Assembly: GCF_000325665.1 (NCBI RefSeq)
Contig: NC_019908.1
Span: forward strand, 310,001 to 374,000
Source: Brachyspira pilosicoli P43/6/78
GTDB lineage: Bacteria > Spirochaetota > Brachyspiria > Brachyspirales > Brachyspiraceae
Direction of reading: 5' to 3'
Length of the DNA stretch: 64,000 nucleotides
This document shows, piece after piece, positions 11,206 through 25,021 of the stretch. The position numbers and the translations under genes were made by a program. Each line of letters opens with the position of its first letter. Position 1 is the first letter of the stretch. The notes beneath the pieces are model-generated. The model saw only the letters and a list, made by a program, of their open reading frames with translations, was not told the DNA's origin and did no database searches.

Positions 11206-12438
11206 TTATCCTATACACTCAGAAAGTATTGAAACGGCTTTTTCTAATTCTTTATCAGTTATTGTGAGAGGAGGAAGAAGTCTTATTTTATTTTTAGCAG
11301 TCAAAGGAATTACTCCTTTTGATATACATTTTTCTACTATTTCTCTAGCATTTAATCCTTCTTTTAATCCTATTCCAAGCATTAAACCTATTCCGTCCAC
11401 ACTTACAACATTATTAAGTTTTGTTAATTTACTTTTTATATATTTAGATTTTTTTTCAACTTCTTTTAAAAGGCTTTTGTCTATAATGTTTAATACTTCC
11501 AAAGCTCCAGCAGCGACAACAGGATTAGCTCCAAATGTAGAAGCATGGTCTCCAGGAACAAATACATCAGAGCATTTTTTATTCATAAGTATAGCCCCTA
11601 TAGGAAGCCCGCCTCCTAAACCTTTTGCTAATGTAGTGATGTCTGGTTTAATTCCAAAATGTTCAGAGCATAAAAACTTTCCTGTTCTTCCAACACCAGT
11701 TTGAACTTCATCTACTATAAAGAGTATGTCATTTTCTTCGCAGTATTTTTTTATCTTTTGTACATATTCTTTATCAAGAGGTATTACTCCTCCTTCACCC
11801 TGTATAAGTTCCATCATTATAGCACATGCATTGTCTTTTAATTTTTCTATAGTGTCTTCATAATTATTAGCTTCTGCAAATGAAAAGCCTTCCAAAAATG
11901 GAAAAAAGTAATTGTGAAAAACTTCCTGACCTGTAGCTGAAATTGTACAGATAGTTCTTCCATGAAAAGAGTTTTTTAATGTTACAATTTTGTTTCTTTT
12001 ATAATTTTTATCATTATTGGCATATTTATTAAAAGAATACTTTCTTGCACATTTAATAGCAGCTTCATTTGATTCGGCACCAGAGTTGCAGAAAAATACT
12101 TTATCATATTTTGTTATAGAGCATAATTTTTTTGCCAAATCAATATAAGGTTTTGTGTAGAAAAGATTTGAAGTATGCTGAAGTGTTTTTGCTTGATTTA
12201 CTACAGCATTAATCCAATTTTTATTTCCATAACCAATGCTATTAACTCCAATACCGCTTCCTAAATCAATATACTCTTTTCCTTCTATATCTTTTAATTT
12301 AGTATCTTTAGCAGACTCTAAAACTAAATCGAATCTTGCATAAGTGTTAGCAACATATTTTTTGCTGTTATTAATATATTCTTTTTTTAACTTTGATTTT
12401 TCATTATTTTGATTATTATTATTTTTTTTGCATGCCAT
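11206..12438 (-). CDS. argD: Acetylornithine aminotransferase
   Basis: This 410-residue class III PLP aminotransferase converts N-acetylglutamate semialdehyde to N-acetylornithine with glutamate as amino donor. Visible motifs: FCNSGAESNEAAIKCAR (cofactor phosphate binding), SFHGRT, ELIQGEGG, FIVDEVQTGVGRTG, and TTLAKGLGGGLPIGA with the PLP-binding Lys. Ahead of the usual start is an extra Asn/Lys-rich tail (CKKNNNNQNNEKSKLKK), unusual for the family. It is the last gene of the argC-argJ-argB-argD operon and is followed by a hairpin. A GAGGGT site precedes the ATG. Confidence 0.92.
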   Translation of the reverse strand: MACKKNNNNQNNEKSKLKKEYINNSKKYVANTYARFDLVLESAKDTKLKDIEGKEYIDLGSGIGVNSIGYGNKNWINAVVNQAKTLQHTSNLFYTKPYIDLAKKLCSITKYDKVFFCNSGAESNEAAIKCARKYSFNKYANNDKNYKRNKIVTLKNSFHGRTICTISATGQEVFHNYFFPFLEGFSFAEANNYEDTIEKLKDNACAIMMELIQGEGGVIPLDKEYVQKIKKYCEENDILFIVDEVQTGVGRTGKFLCSEHFGIKPDITTLAKGLGGGLPIGAILMNKKCSDVFVPGDHASTFGANPVVAAGALEVLNIIDKSLLKEVEKKSKYIKSKLTKLNNVVSVDGIGLMLGIGLKEGLNAREIVEKCISKGVIPLTAKNKIRLLPPLTITDKELEKAVSILSECIG

Positions 12439-12469: not shown

Positions 12470-13336
12470 TTAATCTTTATAAAACATTGTTCCTATACCT
12501 TCATCAGTAAACATCTCTATCAATAATGAATGGCATAGTCTTCCGTCTATTATAAATACTTTTGATACTCCATTTTGTACTGCATTAATACAGTGCTGAA
12601 CTTTAGGTATCATTCCTCCAGATATAGTACCGTCTTTTATAAGATTATCTATCTCTTTAATATTTATTTTGCTTATTAAAGTGCTTTCATCATCTTTATC
12701 TTTTAAAAGCCCTGGTGTGTCTGTCATATATATTAATGTTTCAGCCTTTAAACTTTCTGCTATTTTGGCAGCAGCAGTATCAGCATTAATATTATAAACA
12801 TTTCCTTCTTTATCACAGCCTATAGTAGCAACTATTGGAATATATTCGTTTGTTATTATAGTATTAAGCAAATGAGTATCAACATCATCTACATCTCCAA
12901 CAAATCCTAAATCAATATCCCCTTTATATTTGCTCACTTTAAACATGTTGCCGTCAATACCGCATATACCTAAACATTTACCTCCAGAGTTTTCAAGAGA
13001 AGCCACCAACTCTTTATTAACTTTTCCAGCAAGAACCATTTTTACTATTTCAGCAGTTTCGCTGTCAGTGTATCTTAAGCCATTTATAAACTTTGATTCT
13101 TTTCCTATTTTGTTAAGCATAGCAGTAATATCTTTTCCTCCGCCATGAACCACTATAACATTTATTCCCACAGTAGAAAGCAAAGCAACATCGCTCATCA
13201 CTTTCTTTTTTAACTCAGGATTTTCCATAGCACTTCCGCCATATTTTATTACAACGGTTTTCCCTGTGTATTTTTGTATATATGGAAGTGCCTGATTAAG
13301 TATTAGTGCCTTATCTCTATTTGAAATATTTTCCAT
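12470..13336 (-). CDS. argB: Acetylglutamate kinase
   Basis: The 288-residue amino-acid kinase phosphorylates N-acetylglutamate. Motifs: VVIKYGGSAMENPELK (ATP site), VVHGGGKDI, a substrate region FINGLRYTD, and INADTAAAKIAESLKAETLIYMTDTPG. The presence of an N-terminal helix (NRDKALILNQALPYIQKYTGK) is typical of arginine-sensitive hexameric ArgB, so feedback inhibition by arginine is plausible. It lies between argJ and argD with 30-40 bp gaps. Confidence 0.93.
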   Translation of the reverse strand: MENISNRDKALILNQALPYIQKYTGKTVVIKYGGSAMENPELKKKVMSDVALLSTVGINVIVVHGGGKDITAMLNKIGKESKFINGLRYTDSETAEIVKMVLAGKVNKELVASLENSGGKCLGICGIDGNMFKVSKYKGDIDLGFVGDVDDVDTHLLNTIITNEYIPIVATIGCDKEGNVYNINADTAAAKIAESLKAETLIYMTDTPGLLKDKDDESTLISKINIKEIDNLIKDGTISGGMIPKVQHCINAVQNGVSKVFIIDGRLCHSLLIEMFTDEGIGTMFYKD

Positions 13337-13374: not shown

Positions 13375-14604
13375 TTAGCTTCTGTATGAGCCGTTAATTT
13401 TTACATAATCATAAGTTAAATCACAGCCCCAAGCTACAGCTTTACTATTGCCAGAGTTCATATCTATTGTAATTTTTATCTCATCTTCTTTTAATATTTT
13501 TAAAGCTTCATCTTCATTAAACTCCACACCATATCCCTCTTTATAAACATTCATCTCTCCATATTTTGAACCAACATTTATAGAAACTTTATTTATATCA
13601 AAGTCAGCATCAGTATAACCTATAGCACATGAAATTCTTCCCCAGTTCATATCACACCCAAACATAGCAGCCTTAACTAAATTTGATGTTATTACAGATT
13701 TTGCTATTTTTCTTGCTAATTTTATATCACTAGCATTCATTACTTCGCATTCAATTAACTTTGTAGCTCCTTCTCCGTCTTTAGCTATTGCTTTGGATAA
13801 ATAAGTATTAGTCATATTTAATGCCTTGCAAAATATTTTATAATTATCATCTTCTTTATCTATCAAAGTATTTTTAGCTTCACCATTAGCAAGAACAACA
13901 CACATATCGTTTGTAGAAGTATCTCCATCAACACTAACCATATTATATGTAGATTTTGTATCTTCACTTAAAGCCTTCTGAAGCATTTCGCTTGATATAT
14001 TGCAGTCTGTTGTGATAAATGCAAGCATTGTAGCCATATTAGGGTGAATCATTCCGCTTCCTTTTGCAGTACCTCCAATATGCACTTTTTTACCATCAAT
14101 TTCAAACTCATATGCTATTTCTTTCATAAATGTGTCAGTTGTCATTATTGCACTTGCTGCATTTTTAGCATGCTCATGAGAGTGGTTGGCATTGTCTATA
14201 AGCTCTTTTATATTTTTTTCTATAGGCTCAATTGGAAGAGGTACTCCTATAACTCCAGTAGAAGCAACAGCTACTTCTTTTTCATCAATACCAAGTACAT
14301 CAGCAGTAAGTTTGCACATCTCTTTTGCTACTTCCACTCCGTTTTTATTACAAGTATTAGCATTGCCAGAATTGCATATAATAGCTTTTGCTTTTCCATC
14401 TTTTAAATGTTCTTTACTTACTGTGATGTTTGCTCCGCATGCTTTGTTTTGAGTATATACTGCAGCAGCAGAACATTGACTTTTACTATAAATTATTGCT
14501 AAATCTTTTTTTTCTTTATTTTTCTTTATTCCAGCATGTATTCCATTTGCGAAGAAACCTTCAGAAGCACATACACCGCCTTCAATTTGTTTAATATCTA
14601 TCAT
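13375..14604 (-). CDS. argJ: Glutamate N-acetyltransferase (ornithine acetyltransferase)
   Basis: The 409-residue ArgJ transfers acetyl from N-acetylornithine to glutamate, giving the cyclic (recycling) form of ornithine synthesis. It contains the autoproteolysis site in HPNMATMLAFITTD, where the Thr of the ATML sequence becomes the nucleophile of the beta chain, and GGTAKGSGMI before it. Its presence explains why argA is not needed nearby. Whether it also uses acetyl-CoA cannot be told. Second gene of the operon. Confidence 0.93.
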   Translation of the reverse strand: MIDIKQIEGGVCASEGFFANGIHAGIKKNKEKKDLAIIYSKSQCSAAAVYTQNKACGANITVSKEHLKDGKAKAIICNSGNANTCNKNGVEVAKEMCKLTADVLGIDEKEVAVASTGVIGVPLPIEPIEKNIKELIDNANHSHEHAKNAASAIMTTDTFMKEIAYEFEIDGKKVHIGGTAKGSGMIHPNMATMLAFITTDCNISSEMLQKALSEDTKSTYNMVSVDGDTSTNDMCVVLANGEAKNTLIDKEDDNYKIFCKALNMTNTYLSKAIAKDGEGATKLIECEVMNASDIKLARKIAKSVITSNLVKAAMFGCDMNWGRISCAIGYTDADFDINKVSINVGSKYGEMNVYKEGYGVEFNEDEALKILKEDEIKITIDMNSGNSKAVAWGCDLTYDYVKINGSYRS

Positions 14605-14660: not shown

Positions 14661-15719
14661 TTAAAAAGCTGGAGGTATTATATTTAACCCTTCATCTTCT
14701 TTAAAGCCTAAAGCTATATTCATGTTTTGTATTGCCTGTCCTGCTGCTCCTTTTACCATATTGTCTATTGTTGATACTATTATTAATTTGTTTGTTCTCT
14801 CGTCCATATGCAAAGATATATCACAATAATTTGAGTATTTAACATATTTTAAATTTGCTATCTCTCCAATATTTAATACTCTTACAAATGCTGAATCTTT
14901 ATAAAACTCTTTGTAAATGTTATGTATATCTTCTAATTTAAGATTTTTATTTTCTAATTTAGCATATATTGTTGAAACTATTCCTCTGTTTAATGGAAGC
15001 AAATGAGGAACAAAAGTAACTTTTATATCTTCACCGTATATGTTTGATAATGTTTGCTCTATTTCTGGGGTATGTCTATGTTCAGCAATTTTGTATGGAG
15101 CAAATGCTTCATTACATTCAGTATAATGAGTATTTAATTTTAATTCTCTTCCTGCACCAGTAGCTCCAGATTTTGAATCAATTATAATATCATCTTTTTG
15201 TATTAATTTGTTTACTAAAGATGGTGCTAATGCCAAACCTATAGAAGTAGGGTAGCAGCCTGGGTTTCCTATAATTTTTGCATTCTTTAATTGTTTTTTA
15301 CCATATACATTATCATACTTAATTATTTCAGGTATTGAATAAATAGCCTCTTTATGAAGATTTTTATATTTATATTCTTTGCCGTACCAATTTTTATAAT
15401 CTTCTTCATCGTCCAATCTAAAATCAGCACCCAAATCTATAAATAAAATATTTTTTTCAAAGCATTTATTTGCAATCTCATCGCTTAAACCAGCAGGAAG
15501 TGATGCAAATACAACATCAGAGTTTTCAAATATTTCATTTTCATCTATTAATAATTTATCTAAGTTTTTATTTAAGTTAGGATATATTTCGTTTATATTT
15601 TTCCCAACAAAACTTTTTGAAGAAATGTTATTTAATTCTACTTTAGTATGAGATAATAGCAGTCTAATTAATTCTGCACCTGCATATCCTGTTGCACCTA
15701 TAACGGATACTTTTATCAT
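14661..15719 (-). CDS. argC: N-acetyl-gamma-glutamyl-phosphate reductase
   Basis: The 352-residue enzyme reduces acetylglutamyl phosphate to the semialdehyde with NADPH. It begins SVIGATGYAGAELIRLLLSH (dinucleotide fold) and has the catalytic Cys in IGNPGCYPTSIGLALAPS, plus SGATGAGRE and HRHTPEIEQ. It is first in argCJBD. GGAG precedes the ATG. Its leader of about 180 nt contains a short ORF with tandem Arg codons (see 15821-15868), so expression may respond to charged tRNA-Arg. Confidence 0.93.
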   Translation of the reverse strand: MIKVSVIGATGYAGAELIRLLLSHTKVELNNISSKSFVGKNINEIYPNLNKNLDKLLIDENEIFENSDVVFASLPAGLSDEIANKCFEKNILFIDLGADFRLDDEEDYKNWYGKEYKYKNLHKEAIYSIPEIIKYDNVYGKKQLKNAKIIGNPGCYPTSIGLALAPSLVNKLIQKDDIIIDSKSGATGAGRELKLNTHYTECNEAFAPYKIAEHRHTPEIEQTLSNIYGEDIKVTFVPHLLPLNRGIVSTIYAKLENKNLKLEDIHNIYKEFYKDSAFVRVLNIGEIANLKYVKYSNYCDISLHMDERTNKLIIVSTIDNMVKGAAGQAIQNMNIALGFKEDEGLNIIPPAF

Positions 15720-15816
15720 ATAAAACGCTCCTATAATGATTTAAAATAATATTATAAAGAATAATATTTAATTGTTTTTAAAAAAATTTATTTTTAGATT
15801 AGAAGAAATAAAATAG

Positions 15817-15829
15817 AGGCTTAACGCCT
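15817..15829 (-). promoter_or_regulatory. Small hairpin overlapping leader-peptide stop
   Basis: AGGC and GCCT pair around GTTAA on the minus strand, covering the two Arg codons and stop of the leader ORF, followed by CTATTTTATTT. The stem is only 4 bp, so as a terminator it would be weak on its own. Confidence 0.35.
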
Positions 15830-15868
15830 TGAGAAATTATTTTTGATGTAAGAGATTATATTATACAT
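15821..15868 (-). CDS. Candidate arginine leader peptide of argCJBD
   Basis: A 15-codon ORF in the argC leader reads MYNIISYIKNNFSRR and stops at TAA. Its last two codons are AGG CGT, both Arg. It has a plausible ribosome site (AGGA, 9 bases before ATG) and starts about 30 nt after the predicted transcription start. Such an arrangement is that of amino-acid-sensing leader peptides, in which ribosome stalling at scarce tRNA-Arg changes RNA folding or Rho access. This is inferred from layout; two Arg codons in a short ORF could arise by chance. Confidence 0.5.
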   Translation of the reverse strand: MYNIISYIKNNFSRR

Positions 15869-15906
15869 TTTTATTTTTCCTAAAAACTGTTTAATATTTG
15901 CCTTTA

Positions 15907-15934
15907 ATTATACTATTAATAACATAAAAGTCAA
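15907..15934 (-). promoter_or_regulatory. Promoter of the argCJBD operon
   Basis: On the minus strand TTGACT (15934-15929) and a perfect TATAAT (15912-15907) are 16 bp apart. Transcription would begin near 15900. The remaining gap up to 16147 is AT-rich with nothing recognised. Confidence 0.75.
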
Positions 15935-19203: not shown

Positions 19204-22200
19204 TTAAATATATTTCCAAGTGTAGCCTTTTTTCATCTCCAGAATTTCTTCAACAGTACCTTTTGCAATGATTTCTCCTCCATTAGTGCCGCCTTCTAAA
19301 CCTAAATCGATTATATAGTCGGCAGCTTTTATAACATCAGGATTATGCTCTATTATTATAACGCTATGTCCTTTCTCTACTAATTTATTTAAAGCTATGA
19401 GAAGTTTATTAACATCATCAAAATGAAGCCCTGTAGTAGGTTCATCTAAAATGTATACTATATGCTCATCACCTTGTTTTTTAGCTAACTCTGTTGCAAG
19501 TTTCAAACGCTGTAATTCACCGCCTGAGAAAGTATCAAGCCTTTGAGAGAGTTTTATATAACCAAGCCCAACCTCACTCATTATAGAAAGTGTTTTAGTA
19601 ATTGATTTGTCAAAGTCAAAAAACTCTATTGCCTCATCAACTGTAAGTTCTAATACTTCTGCTATGTTTAGAGATTTGAATCTTACAGACAAAGTTTCAT
19701 CGTTATATCTTTTACCACCGCAAGCCTCACAAACTATTTCCATATCGGATAAGAAGTGCATTGCAATTTTTCTTATTCCTTTACCTTCACATATATTGCA
19801 TCTTCCTTCTTTGCCGTTGTATGAGAAACGTCCTGCTGCAAATGCCTTTGCTTTTGCTGTAGGAGTTTTAGCAAATATATTTCTTATTTTATCAAATACT
19901 TTACTATAGCTTACCAATGTACTTCTAATAGAGCCCACTATTGAAATTTGATCAACTAATATAGTATCCGAAATAATCTCAGGTATTTCAACACTTTCAA
20001 ATTTTGAGTATTGATTGAGTCTGCGTTTTTTTAGAGCAGGGTAGAGAGTGTCTATTATTAATGATGACTTACCGCTTCCAGATACTCCTGTAACTACTAC
20101 TATTTTTTTAAGCGGTATATCAACATCAATATTTTTTAAATTGTTTGTTGAAACATTTTTTAATTTTATGCATTCAGTCTCTTCATTTCTTACAGCAGTT
20201 TTTTCAAATACTTTTTTTCTCTCGCTTAAATAATTTCCTGTAAGTGAATCATTATCTTTTAATATATCATCATATTTACCTTGGAAAACTACTTCACCTC
20301 CAAAAGCACCGGCATAAGGTCCCATATCTACAATATTGTCAGCTGCCTTCATAGTATCTCTGTCATGCTCTACTATTACAAGAGTATTTTTTAAATCTCT
20401 TAATTCTTTTAAAGTATCAAGCAAATGGTTGGTATCTCTTGGGTGAAGTCCTACAGTAGGCTCATCTAATACATAAAGCACCCCTGTAAGTTTAGAACCT
20501 AATTGACTGGCAAGCCTTATTCTCTGTGCCTCACCGCCTGAAAGAGTTGCATATTTCCTGCTTAAAAATAAATATCCAAGTCCTACTTTATCTAAGAAAC
20601 TTAATCTTGTTCTAATTTCTTTTATTGCTTCTTTTGATATAGTATTTTCTCTTTCAGTTAAAAGAGTTGGAAGTTCATCAAAAAAGTTAATGGCTTCTTC
20701 AACTGTCATTGCACATACTTGGCTTATGTTTTTATTTTGTATAGTGTATGACCTTATTATCTCGTTTAATCTCTCTCCATGACAAGAGCTACATTCCTCA
20801 TCAATAAAGAATTTACCAAGTGATTTATCTTTCCATTCTGAATAGTCTTCACTTGTAACATCGTTGTTAGAATGCCACTCAGTAATAACATTTCCTACAG
20901 AATAATCGCCTCCAAAGAAAAATGTATCAATAACTTTTTTGTCAAGTTCATTAAAAGGAGTTTCATACAAATCCTTTTTTGTTATGCCGTTTCTTTTTAA
21001 AAATCTCATTAAAGAATCTGTATAATATTTTCCTGGAGTAGAAAACATATTATGAATAGCAGTATCTAATGCCCCGTCAAATAAGGGTTTTGTGCTGTCT
21101 TTTATAGCTAAATCTATACTAAATGTAGGTTTGCTTCCAAGCCCTTTACATTCCTCACAATATCCCCAATGCGAGTTAAATGAAAAATGTCTTGGTGTCA
21201 CTTCAAAATCAAATAAAATTCCATGAAGTAAACAAGCTGGGAATTTTGTGTGGAAACTTTCTTTTACAATTATTCCTTGAGTGGCTTTTATATGTGCTAC
21301 TCCGTTTGATAAATCCATTGCTTTTTCAAGAGCATCTGCAATTCTTGCCCTTTTATCTTTTCCAACAACAACTCTATCAATTACAATACCAACAGAATAT
21401 ATTTCTTCTTTTGATAATTCTTTAATATCTTCTTCTGTAATATCATCTATAACATAGTCATTATTGTTAATCTGCATTCTCACATATCCAGCTTCTCTTG
21501 TTTTCTCTATAATCTTTTTAATATCTTTTGCATCATTGTCATTAAAAGTAAATCTATGATTAAATGAGCTATGATATAGAGGAGAAATTATTACAAGTTT
21601 ATTCTGCTCCATAGTGTCAACAATTTCAGTAGCAAGTATTGAAGGAGTTTCGGCTTTTAGAGTATCTTTATCAGAACAATGCGGGCAATGAGGTTTAGCA
21701 AGCCTTGCAAAAATTAATCTGAAATAGTCATAAATCTCTGTAACAGTAGCCACAGTTGAGCGAGGATTTCTGCTTACATTTTTTTGGTCTATTGCAATTG
21801 CTGGTGCTAAGCCTTCAATTTTTTCAACATTAGCATCTTCAAATCTTCCTAAAAATCTTCTTGCATAAGTAGAAAGCGATTCAACAAATCTTCTTTGACC
21901 TTCTTTAAATATAGTGTCGAATGCAAGAGAAGTTTTTCCGCTTCCTGATACTCCTGTAATAACGTTGATTTGGTTTTTTGGGAGTGTCAAGCTTATATTT
22001 TTAAGATTATGTTTATTAGCTCCTTTTATGATGAGAGATGTATTTTCTTCTTTTTTTGTTTGTTCTGTTTTGATATTTTCTTTTTTCTTTTTTGAAGGCT
22101 TTAATATTTCTTTAAGTTCCTTTGCTGTGAGAGATTCTTTTACTTTTATTATATCTTCAGGCTTACCCTCAGCAACAACTCTTCCGCCTTTATCTCCGCT

Positions 22201-25021
22201 TAAAGGCCCCATATCTATAATATAATCAGCACATTTAATAACGTCTAAATTATGCTCTACAACTAAAACAGTATTTCCTTTTTCAACAAGTCCGTCTAAT
22301 GCTTTTAATAATTTCTTTATATCCTCAAAATGAAGTCCTGTAGTAGGCTCATCTAATATATATAAAGTGTTTCCTGTAGATACTTTATGAAGCTCGCTTG
22401 CTAATTTTATTCTTTGAGCTTCTCCTCCTGAAAGTGTAGTTGAAGGCTGACCTAATTTTATATATCCAAGTCCTATATCTTCCATTATTTTTAATATTCT
22501 TGTAATAGAAGTGATGCCATCAAAAAATTCTATTGCTTCAGATACACTCATTTCAAGAACATCATAAATAGTTTTGTCTTTATATTTAACGTCTAGAGTT
22601 TCTGCATTAAATCTCTTTCCACCGCATTCTTCGCAAGGCACTAACACATTTGAAAGAAATTGCATTTCAAGTTCTATAACTCCAGCACCTTCACAAGTAG
22701 GACATCTTCCTATTTTTACATTGAATGAAAATCTGCCTTTATCATATCCTCTCATTTTAGCAAGTTTAGTAGCTGCAAATAAATCTCTTATAGGCGATAA
22801 AACTTTTGTATAAGTTGCCGGGTTGCTTCTCGGTGTTCTTCCTATAGGTGACTGATCAACTTCTATAACCTTGTCAATATTTTCAAGCCCTTCTATTTTT
22901 TTATGGCTTCCAGGATTTAAACTCTTACCATAAAAATGATTATGCAATGCACGCATTAAAATATTTTCAACTAAAGTAGATTTACCGCTTCCAGAAAGTC
23001 CTGTAACTACAATAAATAAACCCAAAGGAAACTCAACATCTATGTTTTTAAGATTAAATTGATTAGCTCCAATTACTTTTAAAAATTTTCCGTTTCCTTC
23101 ACGTCTTTGTTTAGGAATCTCTATATCATCATCGCCGCGTAAATATTTGGCAGTATATGATTTATCAGATTTTATAAACTCTTCATAATCACCAATGCCA
23201 ACAACTTCACCGCCATTAACTCCAGCATTAGGACCTATATCGATTAAATAATCCGACTCTTCCATTGTCTCTTTATCATGCTCTACAACTATGACGGTAT
23301 TATTTTTATCTCTTAATGTTTTTAATGATTCAATTAATTTTTTATTGTCTGATTGATGAAGTCCTATTGAAGGCTCGTCAAGTACATATAATACACCTTC
23401 AAGTCCGCTTCCTATTTGTGATGCTAATCTTATCCTTTGAGATTCTCCGCCTGAAAGAGTAGGGGAAGAACGTTCTACTGTTAAATAAGTAAGTCCAACT
23501 TTCACCAAAAATGTTAATCTATAAATAATTTCTTTTACTATAGGAGCACCAATTACTTCTTCATTTGGTTTTAATTTTAATTTAGTGAAATAATCATATA
23601 AATCTTCTATAGTCATTGAAGAGAAATCTGCTATAGTTTTGCCGTTAAACTTTACTGACAAAGCATCTTCATTAATTCTCTTACCCTTACATTTAGGGCA
23701 TTCAACTTCGTCCATAAAATTAGCATAATAACTATTTTTATAAGTTTCATAATCGTATTTTAATCTGTCTAAAATTCCAGGAACTCTCTCTTCTACCATT
23801 TTGCTATGATACCAAAATCTTTTTCTCCATTTTACTTCTTTATCAGTACCATAAAGTAAATATTTCTTTTCTGTTTTAGTTAAATCTTTCCAAGGCTTTT
23901 TTAAATCTATTTTGTAAGTTTTGGCAATAACTTCTAGTTCATCAGTACCATACTCCATATCAAAACCTATATGGTCATCTACAAAACAAGATAAAGCCCC
24001 TTCATAAATATTTAAATTCTCATCTTTTACAATATGTTTTTCAGTGAATACATGTTCAACTCCAAGTCCACCGCAAACAGTGCATGCTCCCATAGGGTTA
24101 TTAAATGAAAATAAATTAGGCTCAATATCAGCAATAGAGTGCCCGCAGTTTGCACAAGACCTTTCAGTTGTATAGAGTTTATAATACTTATCTATCTCAA
24201 ACTGCTTGCTCATTTTTTATTTTTTTCTTTTTTGTTTTTGTATCTTCTTCAGCATTTTCTGGAGTTTCTGTTTCTAATACTTCTTCACTTTTTTCATGTT
24301 CTTCATAGAATGCTACTAAGCCTTTTGTTATTCTTATGGCTCTCTCAATATCATCAGTGATTCTTGACAAGTATTTATCTTCTACTTTTATCCTGTCAAT
24401 AACTATTTCTAATGTATGCTTCTCATATCTTTTAAGTTCTGGTATTTCATCTTCATCAAATTTATAAACTATATTATCTATTCTTATTCTAGGATATCCT
24501 GCAAGTTTTACTTCTTCAATTTCTTTTCTATACTCTCCCTTTCTATCTCTTACAATAGGGGCGAGAACTAAAATTCTTTTTTGAGCAAACTCTCTCAAAA
24601 CACTTTGTGCAATTTGGTCTTCACTTTGCTTAGAGATTTTATGTCCGCATTTAGAGCAATATGGTACTCCAAGCCTTGCAAAAAGAAGCCTAAAAAAGTC
24701 ATAGATTTCTGTAACAGTGCCAACAGTAGAACGAGGATTTTTATTTACGCTTTTTTGGTCTATAGAAATAGTAGGAGATAATCCTTCAATATGTTCAACA
24801 TCAGCCTTAGCCATAACACCCAAAAACTGTCTTGCATAAGCTGACAATGATTCTAAATATCTTCTCTGTCCCTCTTTAAAAATAGTATCGAATGCAAGAG
24901 AGCTTTTCCCGCTTCCTGATACTCCTGTCAAAGTAGTGAGGGTTTTATGAGGTATTGAAAGTGATATATTTTTAAGGTTATGCTCTTTAGCACCTCTTAT
25001 TTCTATAGAATTATTAGCCAT
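19204..25021 (-). CDS. uvrA: Double-length UvrA excinuclease subunit, frameshifted
   Basis: One reading unit of about 1,940 residues made of two complete UvrA copies. Part 1 (24197-25021) carries the first Walker A GVSGSGKSS; part 2 (19204-24213) continues at the zinc module CANCGHS and adds three more Walker A motifs near its residues 408, 754 and 1381 and four signature motifs (LSGGE three times, FSGGE once), plus CxxC zinc modules. A Lys-rich linker near residue 710 joins the copies. UvrA finds bulky DNA lesions and loads UvrB; it normally works as a dimer of about 940-residue chains, so this is a covalent dimer, a form also known from Chlamydia. The parts are out of frame by one base in A runs at 24213-24233. 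ATG at 25021 has AAGGAT ahead. Confidence 0.88.

Follow-up and report, generated by a model that had tools for sequence, protein, structure and literature searches.

The argCJBD operon of Brachyspira pilosicoli P43/6/78 is preceded by a 15-codon reading frame whose last two codons, AGG CGT, both specify arginine and stand directly before the stop, and this leader is probably the sensor of a ribosome-mediated attenuator that responds to arginyl-tRNA and carries its control codons at its very end. Arginine sensing by the leader is well supported by comparison of sequences within the genus, and from the same comparisons we infer the output step through which sensing would act on the operon. The window (i.e., the whole stretch of DNA that was analyzed) covers 64,000 nt of the 2,555,556-base genome, which forms one contig.

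A leader reading frame ending in two arginine codons precedes argC

The leader and the operon that it precedes lie on the minus strand of the window, with the following features:

15929..15934 (-), promoter -35 hexamer TTGACT; the other argC leaders long enough to include it align as TTGAC(A/T)
15907..15912 (-), promoter -10 hexamer TATAAT, 16 bp spacer from the -35 hexamer; aligned across the leaders of the genus
15878..15881 (-), leader-ORF Shine-Dalgarno (SD) sequence AGGA, 9 nt spacing to the ATG at 15868
15821..15868 (-), leader ORF MYNIISYIKNNFSRR stop, 15 codons plus TAA, ending AGG CGT TAA
15824..15829 (-), putative regulatory codons AGG CGT (Arg-Arg), immediately 5' of TAA
15817..15829 (-), hairpin AGGC-GTTAA-GCCT, which contains both Arg codons as well as the stop codon
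15732..15819 (-), G-free or G-poor stretch from the leader stop to the argC SD, about 85-88 nt with at most one G; candidate Rho-accessible region
15728..15732 (-), argC SD AGGAG; argC ATG at 15719
14661..15719 (-), argC, TIGR01850 over cut-off
13375..14604 (-), argJ, NCBIfam cut-off passed
12470..13336 (-), argB, NCBIfam cut-off passed
11206..12438 (-), argD (acetylornithine/succinylornithine family transaminase), NCBIfam cut-off passed

An earlier note on this DNA had described the TTGACT-16 bp-TATAAT promoter, the AGGA and the 15-codon ORF ending AGG CGT, along with a small hairpin covering exactly these two codons, and each of these elements was found again at the positions listed and is conserved in the genus. 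The promoter matches the consensus at 11 of 12 positions and is the top-scoring one of its region, where the number of promoter-like sites is not above that of shuffled sequence. Folding assigns the hairpin a pairing probability of 0.97 and an energy of -5.6 kcal/mol. The Arg-Arg (RR) ending is more than chance would give: the window contains 61 SD-led ORFs with a length of 8-30 codons, and only the argC leader ORF has it. Elsewhere in the window (19204-24213, minus strand), the C-terminal part of a 1669-residue ORF is a complete UvrA, and its N-terminal part contains additional sequence resembling UvrA; the predicted protein would be a double-length UvrA.

The terminal arginine codons are conserved in Brachyspira

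We compared 22 congeneric argC loci, 21 of which have a readable leader. Alignment of argC leaders from relatives had been set beforehand as a test of the arginine leader, and it upheld the ORF and its terminal Arg codons: an SD-led ORF ending AGG CGT TAA is present in 18 of the 21, including that of the divergent genome G021. These ORFs are 15, 16, 17, 18, 19 or 21 codons long and always keep the frame, and the distance from the leader stop to argC (79-108 nt) is spread over all three classes modulo three. Promoter, SD, ATG, Arg codons and hairpin are all conserved, and AAGGCGTTAAGCCTC is unchanged in 17 leaders, the eighteenth (G021) having AGGCGTTAATCGTCC. Because the leader peptide upstream of RR is poorly conserved among leaders, selection appears to act on the terminal codons.

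The three argC leaders that lack RR-stop belong to one monophyletic clade, the B. alvinipulli group. In the ArgC tree their proteins group together (98/96) beside that of RR-bearing G021 (87/78), for which reason RR-stop appears to be the ancestral state of the genus, with a single loss. One of the three genomes (G022) has an ORF ending AGG TAA. In the leaders of this group (L018, L019 and L020) AGGTAATTC is conserved, with an ATG in frame in L019 only, and the SD-led frame of L018 and L020 reads MYNSLLHYLFILGNSL(L/V); these sequences may represent either the remnant of the leader or a modified form of it.

Codon choice points in the same direction. The window contains 552 Arg codons, 81% of which are AGA (445), followed by AGG (57), CGT (37), CGC (10), CGA (3) and CGG (0), so that AGG and CGT are both minor codons; the RR-stop argC leaders nonetheless use AGG CGT every time and AGA never. 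The third base of CGT sits in the hairpin loop and is nonetheless invariant, which suggests selection on the Arg codons themselves, and not on the hairpin alone.

The hairpin is constrained in its turn. AGGC-GTTAA-GCCT is identical in 17 argC leaders and in five leaders of an ABC transporter operon (see below), and in G021, where it is shifted in register, GGCG still pairs with CGUC. In argC and ABC leaders its conservation exceeds what coding needs, GCCT being 3' of the stop. In G009, and in the symporter leaders with RR-stop from the window's own group, it is weak or missing altogether. The hairpin may serve to delay translation through the Arg codons, to pause RNA polymerase, or to report the release of the ribosome.

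Similar leaders precede two transport operons

The 13-mer AAGGCGTTAAGCC occurs as a single copy at argC in each of 17 genomes, with one extra copy in G018 that lies 5' of an amino-acid ABC transporter operon. One-mismatch forms are found at the same operon in four other genomes, the window's own among them, and all five sites form the 3' end of leader ORFs of the MINNFSNIKILSFFQVLIRR type; in all five genomes the ABC leader ends ...LIRR-stop and carries AGGCGTTAAGCCT. A search for the element that allowed two mismatches returned mostly background, the transporter site excepted. The operon encodes two substrate-binding proteins, one permease and one ATPase, and the best model for the binding proteins is the lysine/arginine/ornithine subfamily, at a score under its curated cut-off, from which the transporter is presumably of Lys/Arg/Orn type. 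In G009, which is without argC, the ABC leader (L103) has AGG CGT inside MKIYYNSYKSRRISLNNVQFKK, 10 codons before the stop, and is possibly an intermediate or a decayed form.

A search of the window's genome for AGGCGTTAA returned 18 sites, three of which end an SD-led short ORF, where the frequency at TAA sites within the window predicts 0.12 (Poisson P about 3e-4). The three are the leaders of argC, of the ABC operon, and of an operon for an SSF-family sodium symporter. The symporter leader, MLYASFN...KFRR-stop, lies 5' of a gene for a 41-residue protein and the symporter gene, and is shared by the window's genome and three relatives (four SSF leaders). Five other species have a symporter leader of different sequence that ends AGG TGA, in which AGG is the loop above a stem of 6-9 pairs and the hairpin includes the stop codon, and C-G/U-G and G-C/G-U changes preserve the pairing. 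A protein of about 40 residues (MTGSW..DYF.YGC...) is always encoded immediately 5' of the sodium symporter gene (L267 to L277, L291), and it has no match in Pfam or NCBIfam.

An SD-led ORF in frame with AGG is thus present at all three operons, and apart from RR their leader peptides are unrelated. Since the symporter gene of G021 lies inside an arginine deiminase cluster, flanked by arcC/arcB and arcA, the symporter is probably tied to arginine, its own family scores being below curated cut-offs. Upstream of argF, argG and argS, where RR leaders were also looked for, none was convincing.

Arginine supply and the absence of ArgR

None of the 26 Brachyspira genomes has a match to ArgR (PF01316), which was found in the control genomes. 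In the window's genome argG was not found, and there is no ornithine carbamoyltransferase (argF) or argH over cut-off; argCJBD can therefore supply only ornithine there, and the Arg-codon leader is retained despite the missing argF, argG and argH. On this gene content the arginine of the organism has to come from outside, a situation that the leaders of the transport operons would fit.

The ArgC of Brachyspira scores about 60% to clostridial ArgC and at most 46% to that of other spirochaetes; because it is closer to clostridia than to spirochaetes, argC was probably acquired horizontally. An origin of the leader from the clostridial argC, the closest outside the genus, was also considered and rejected: the clostridial sequences carry no comparable leader and match nothing in Rfam.

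A model for arginine-responsive control

Under a shortage of charged tRNA-Arg, a ribosome translating the leader would halt on AGG CGT at its extreme end, where it would melt the small hairpin and cover the first part of the G-poor RNA, and the operon would be expressed. With ample arginine, the ribosome would terminate and depart, the hairpin would re-form, and exposure of the 70-100 nt of untranslated, G-poor leader would cut off expression, most likely by Rho-dependent premature termination. The argC, ABC transporter and sodium symporter operons would in this way fall under one device, forming a small arginine regulon that replaces the missing ArgR. That the leader is translated, that ribosomes stall on it, and that scarcity raises expression we infer from sequence, the direction of the response from the target genes and from the 68-155 nt between the leader and the downstream start. 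The same distance makes direct occlusion of the ribosome binding site, in the manner of S. aureus rbfL, unlikely.

How the halted ribosome would be read out is the less settled part of the model, and for Rho-dependent termination our confidence is tentative. Rho itself is over cut-off in 26 of 26 Brachyspira genomes. Among 31 gene upstream regions in the window, the argC gap has the lowest G count and the largest excess of C over G, with C about average, and we favor Rho for this reason; the G-poverty is suggestive at most, as G-poor runs are not rare in the genome (12 G-free runs of at least 75 nt on both strands of the window together). A ribosome halted on the Arg codons would also leave most of the 70-100 nt gap open to Rho. 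Effects on mRNA stability or on translation are almost as probable an output. If the attenuator reading is right, it would explain how ornithine synthesis and amino-acid uptake are controlled in ArgR-less Brachyspira, and it would pose the question of how control codons right at the stop can work without a terminator.

Alternative explanations

The earlier note had likened the leader to the attenuators of trp, his and leu operons and had pointed to a T-rich stretch after the hairpin. Of that likeness, arginine sensing through terminal Arg codons is supported by their conservation and their recurrence at two more operons of the genome; the hairpin-plus-T-run type is not. Classical attenuation, with the hairpin and the T-rich stretch forming a terminator or part of a switch, would account for a leader ORF whose tandem regulatory codons are overlapped by a hairpin. 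However, a stem of at least five pairs followed by a U-run is present in none of 23 argC and ABC leaders, the T-rich stretch of the window included, and what follows the element in the transporter copy is AATTGTCTATTAAAA or a similar sequence that lacks a U-run. No mutually exclusive antiterminator was seen in single-sequence folds of the leaders, and neither a scan of the window nor a lax scan of the leader returned a credible T-box or other Rfam element. In classical trp, his and leu leaders, moreover, the control codons are internal to the leader peptide, whereas here they are the last two before the stop. Lacking an intrinsic terminator, a T-box and a supported SD-sequestering structure, the leader is not a standard trp/his-type attenuator, and classical attenuation is very improbable. 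An arrest peptide induced by arginine, in the manner of the fungal AAP, TnaC or SpeFL, in which free arginine and the nascent peptide together stall the ribosome at the stop, would also be consistent with the position of the expected stall, TnaC and AAP having their stall sites at the C-terminus or stop codon. Beyond RR, however, the peptides of different operons show no relation to each other, and even those of argC are poorly conserved among themselves, and arrest peptides require conserved residues in the tunnel, as described for TnaC (PMC8429421, PMC10941005); we regard this as very improbable.

Attenuation at the level of translation or mRNA stability, in which the stalled ribosome would free a downstream SD or shield the mRNA from RNase and no premature termination would occur, deserves more weight. 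Pausing at tandem Arg codons sets sensitivity to RNase G in Salmonella orf34-speF (PMC6386406), folding of the naked leader leaves the argC SD largely paired (mean free probability 0.27), and SD cores are complementary to the conserved CCT within the element. Masking the leader with a ribosome, however, barely changes the predicted accessibility of the argC SD (0.27 to 0.29), and for most leaders the predicted CCT:SD pairing is close to zero; sequestration of the SD by CCT was accordingly rejected, base-pair probabilities giving it no support in naked or in masked leaders. We consider this form of attenuation unlikely, though far from negligible. The palindrome AGGCGTTAAGCCT might instead be the DNA operator of some transcription factor, with the ORF incidental, as would befit a near-invariant inverted repeat common to two operons in a genus where no ArgR is available for the job. 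Yet all three operons have SD-led ORFs in frame with AGG, ORF length varies by multiples of three only, the symporter leaders retain AGGCGTTAA or AGG-stop and not the palindrome, and G021 keeps RR-stop and hairpin without it, all of which makes an operator very improbable. The reading that we prefer is the attenuator with arginine codons at the end of its leader.

Comparison with known systems

A literature search, with most subscription papers outside its reach, returned no attenuator for arginine biosynthesis or uptake and none in Brachyspira. Like trp, his and leu leaders, the leader of argC is a peptide with tandem cognate codons 5' of a biosynthetic operon; unlike them, it shows neither an intrinsic terminator nor, in single-sequence folds, an antiterminator, and has its control codons directly before the stop. 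Short polycysteine ORFs reportedly act as attenuators in mycobacteria, in work by Canestrari et al. in 2020, with clustered control codons and no obvious intrinsic terminator; they would resemble the Brachyspira leaders in both respects, and differ in being leaderless, in responding to cysteine and in belonging to Actinobacteria.

The bacterial Arg-codon leaders known from the searched literature control polyamine or biofilm genes. In Salmonella, orf34 (speFL) contains two consecutive Arg codons, AGG CGG, through which its translation rate reports arginine, and Rho-dependent termination, RNA structure and RNase G are involved in the control of speF (PMC6386406). It is likewise a short leader ORF that senses arginine through two adjacent Arg codons, but it controls ornithine decarboxylase, has a conserved peptide domain (DUF2618) and carries its Arg codons at positions 12-13 of 34, whereas the Brachyspira peptides are not conserved and their Arg codons are terminal. 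The S. aureus uORF rbfL senses arginine limitation through minor AGG/AGA codons near its end (PMC13009471), and is thus alike in being short and in placing minor Arg codons close to its end. Its stop, however, overlaps the SD of rbf, a biofilm regulator, so that pausing occludes the SD and represses; in Brachyspira the downstream start is 68-155 nt off and the genes that follow serve biosynthesis and uptake. In the cysS leader uORFC-8-2 of Rhodobacterales, Cys-Cys codons 14-15 lie in a stem, after which comes an intrinsic terminator that has a U-run (PMC8632094). Tandem control codons late in a short uORF and within a stem are common to both systems, and the terminator with its U-run is absent from the Brachyspira leaders.

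Cumulatively, the device would work like an attenuator, and its membership in the terminator-type family fails on the terminator. It could, as a tentative proposal, represent a distinct class of amino-acid attenuator, terminator-free, with the last codons and the stop held in a small hairpin, which would have arisen more than once in the genus (as RR-stop and as AGG-stop) and would serve an arginine regulon that has no repressor.
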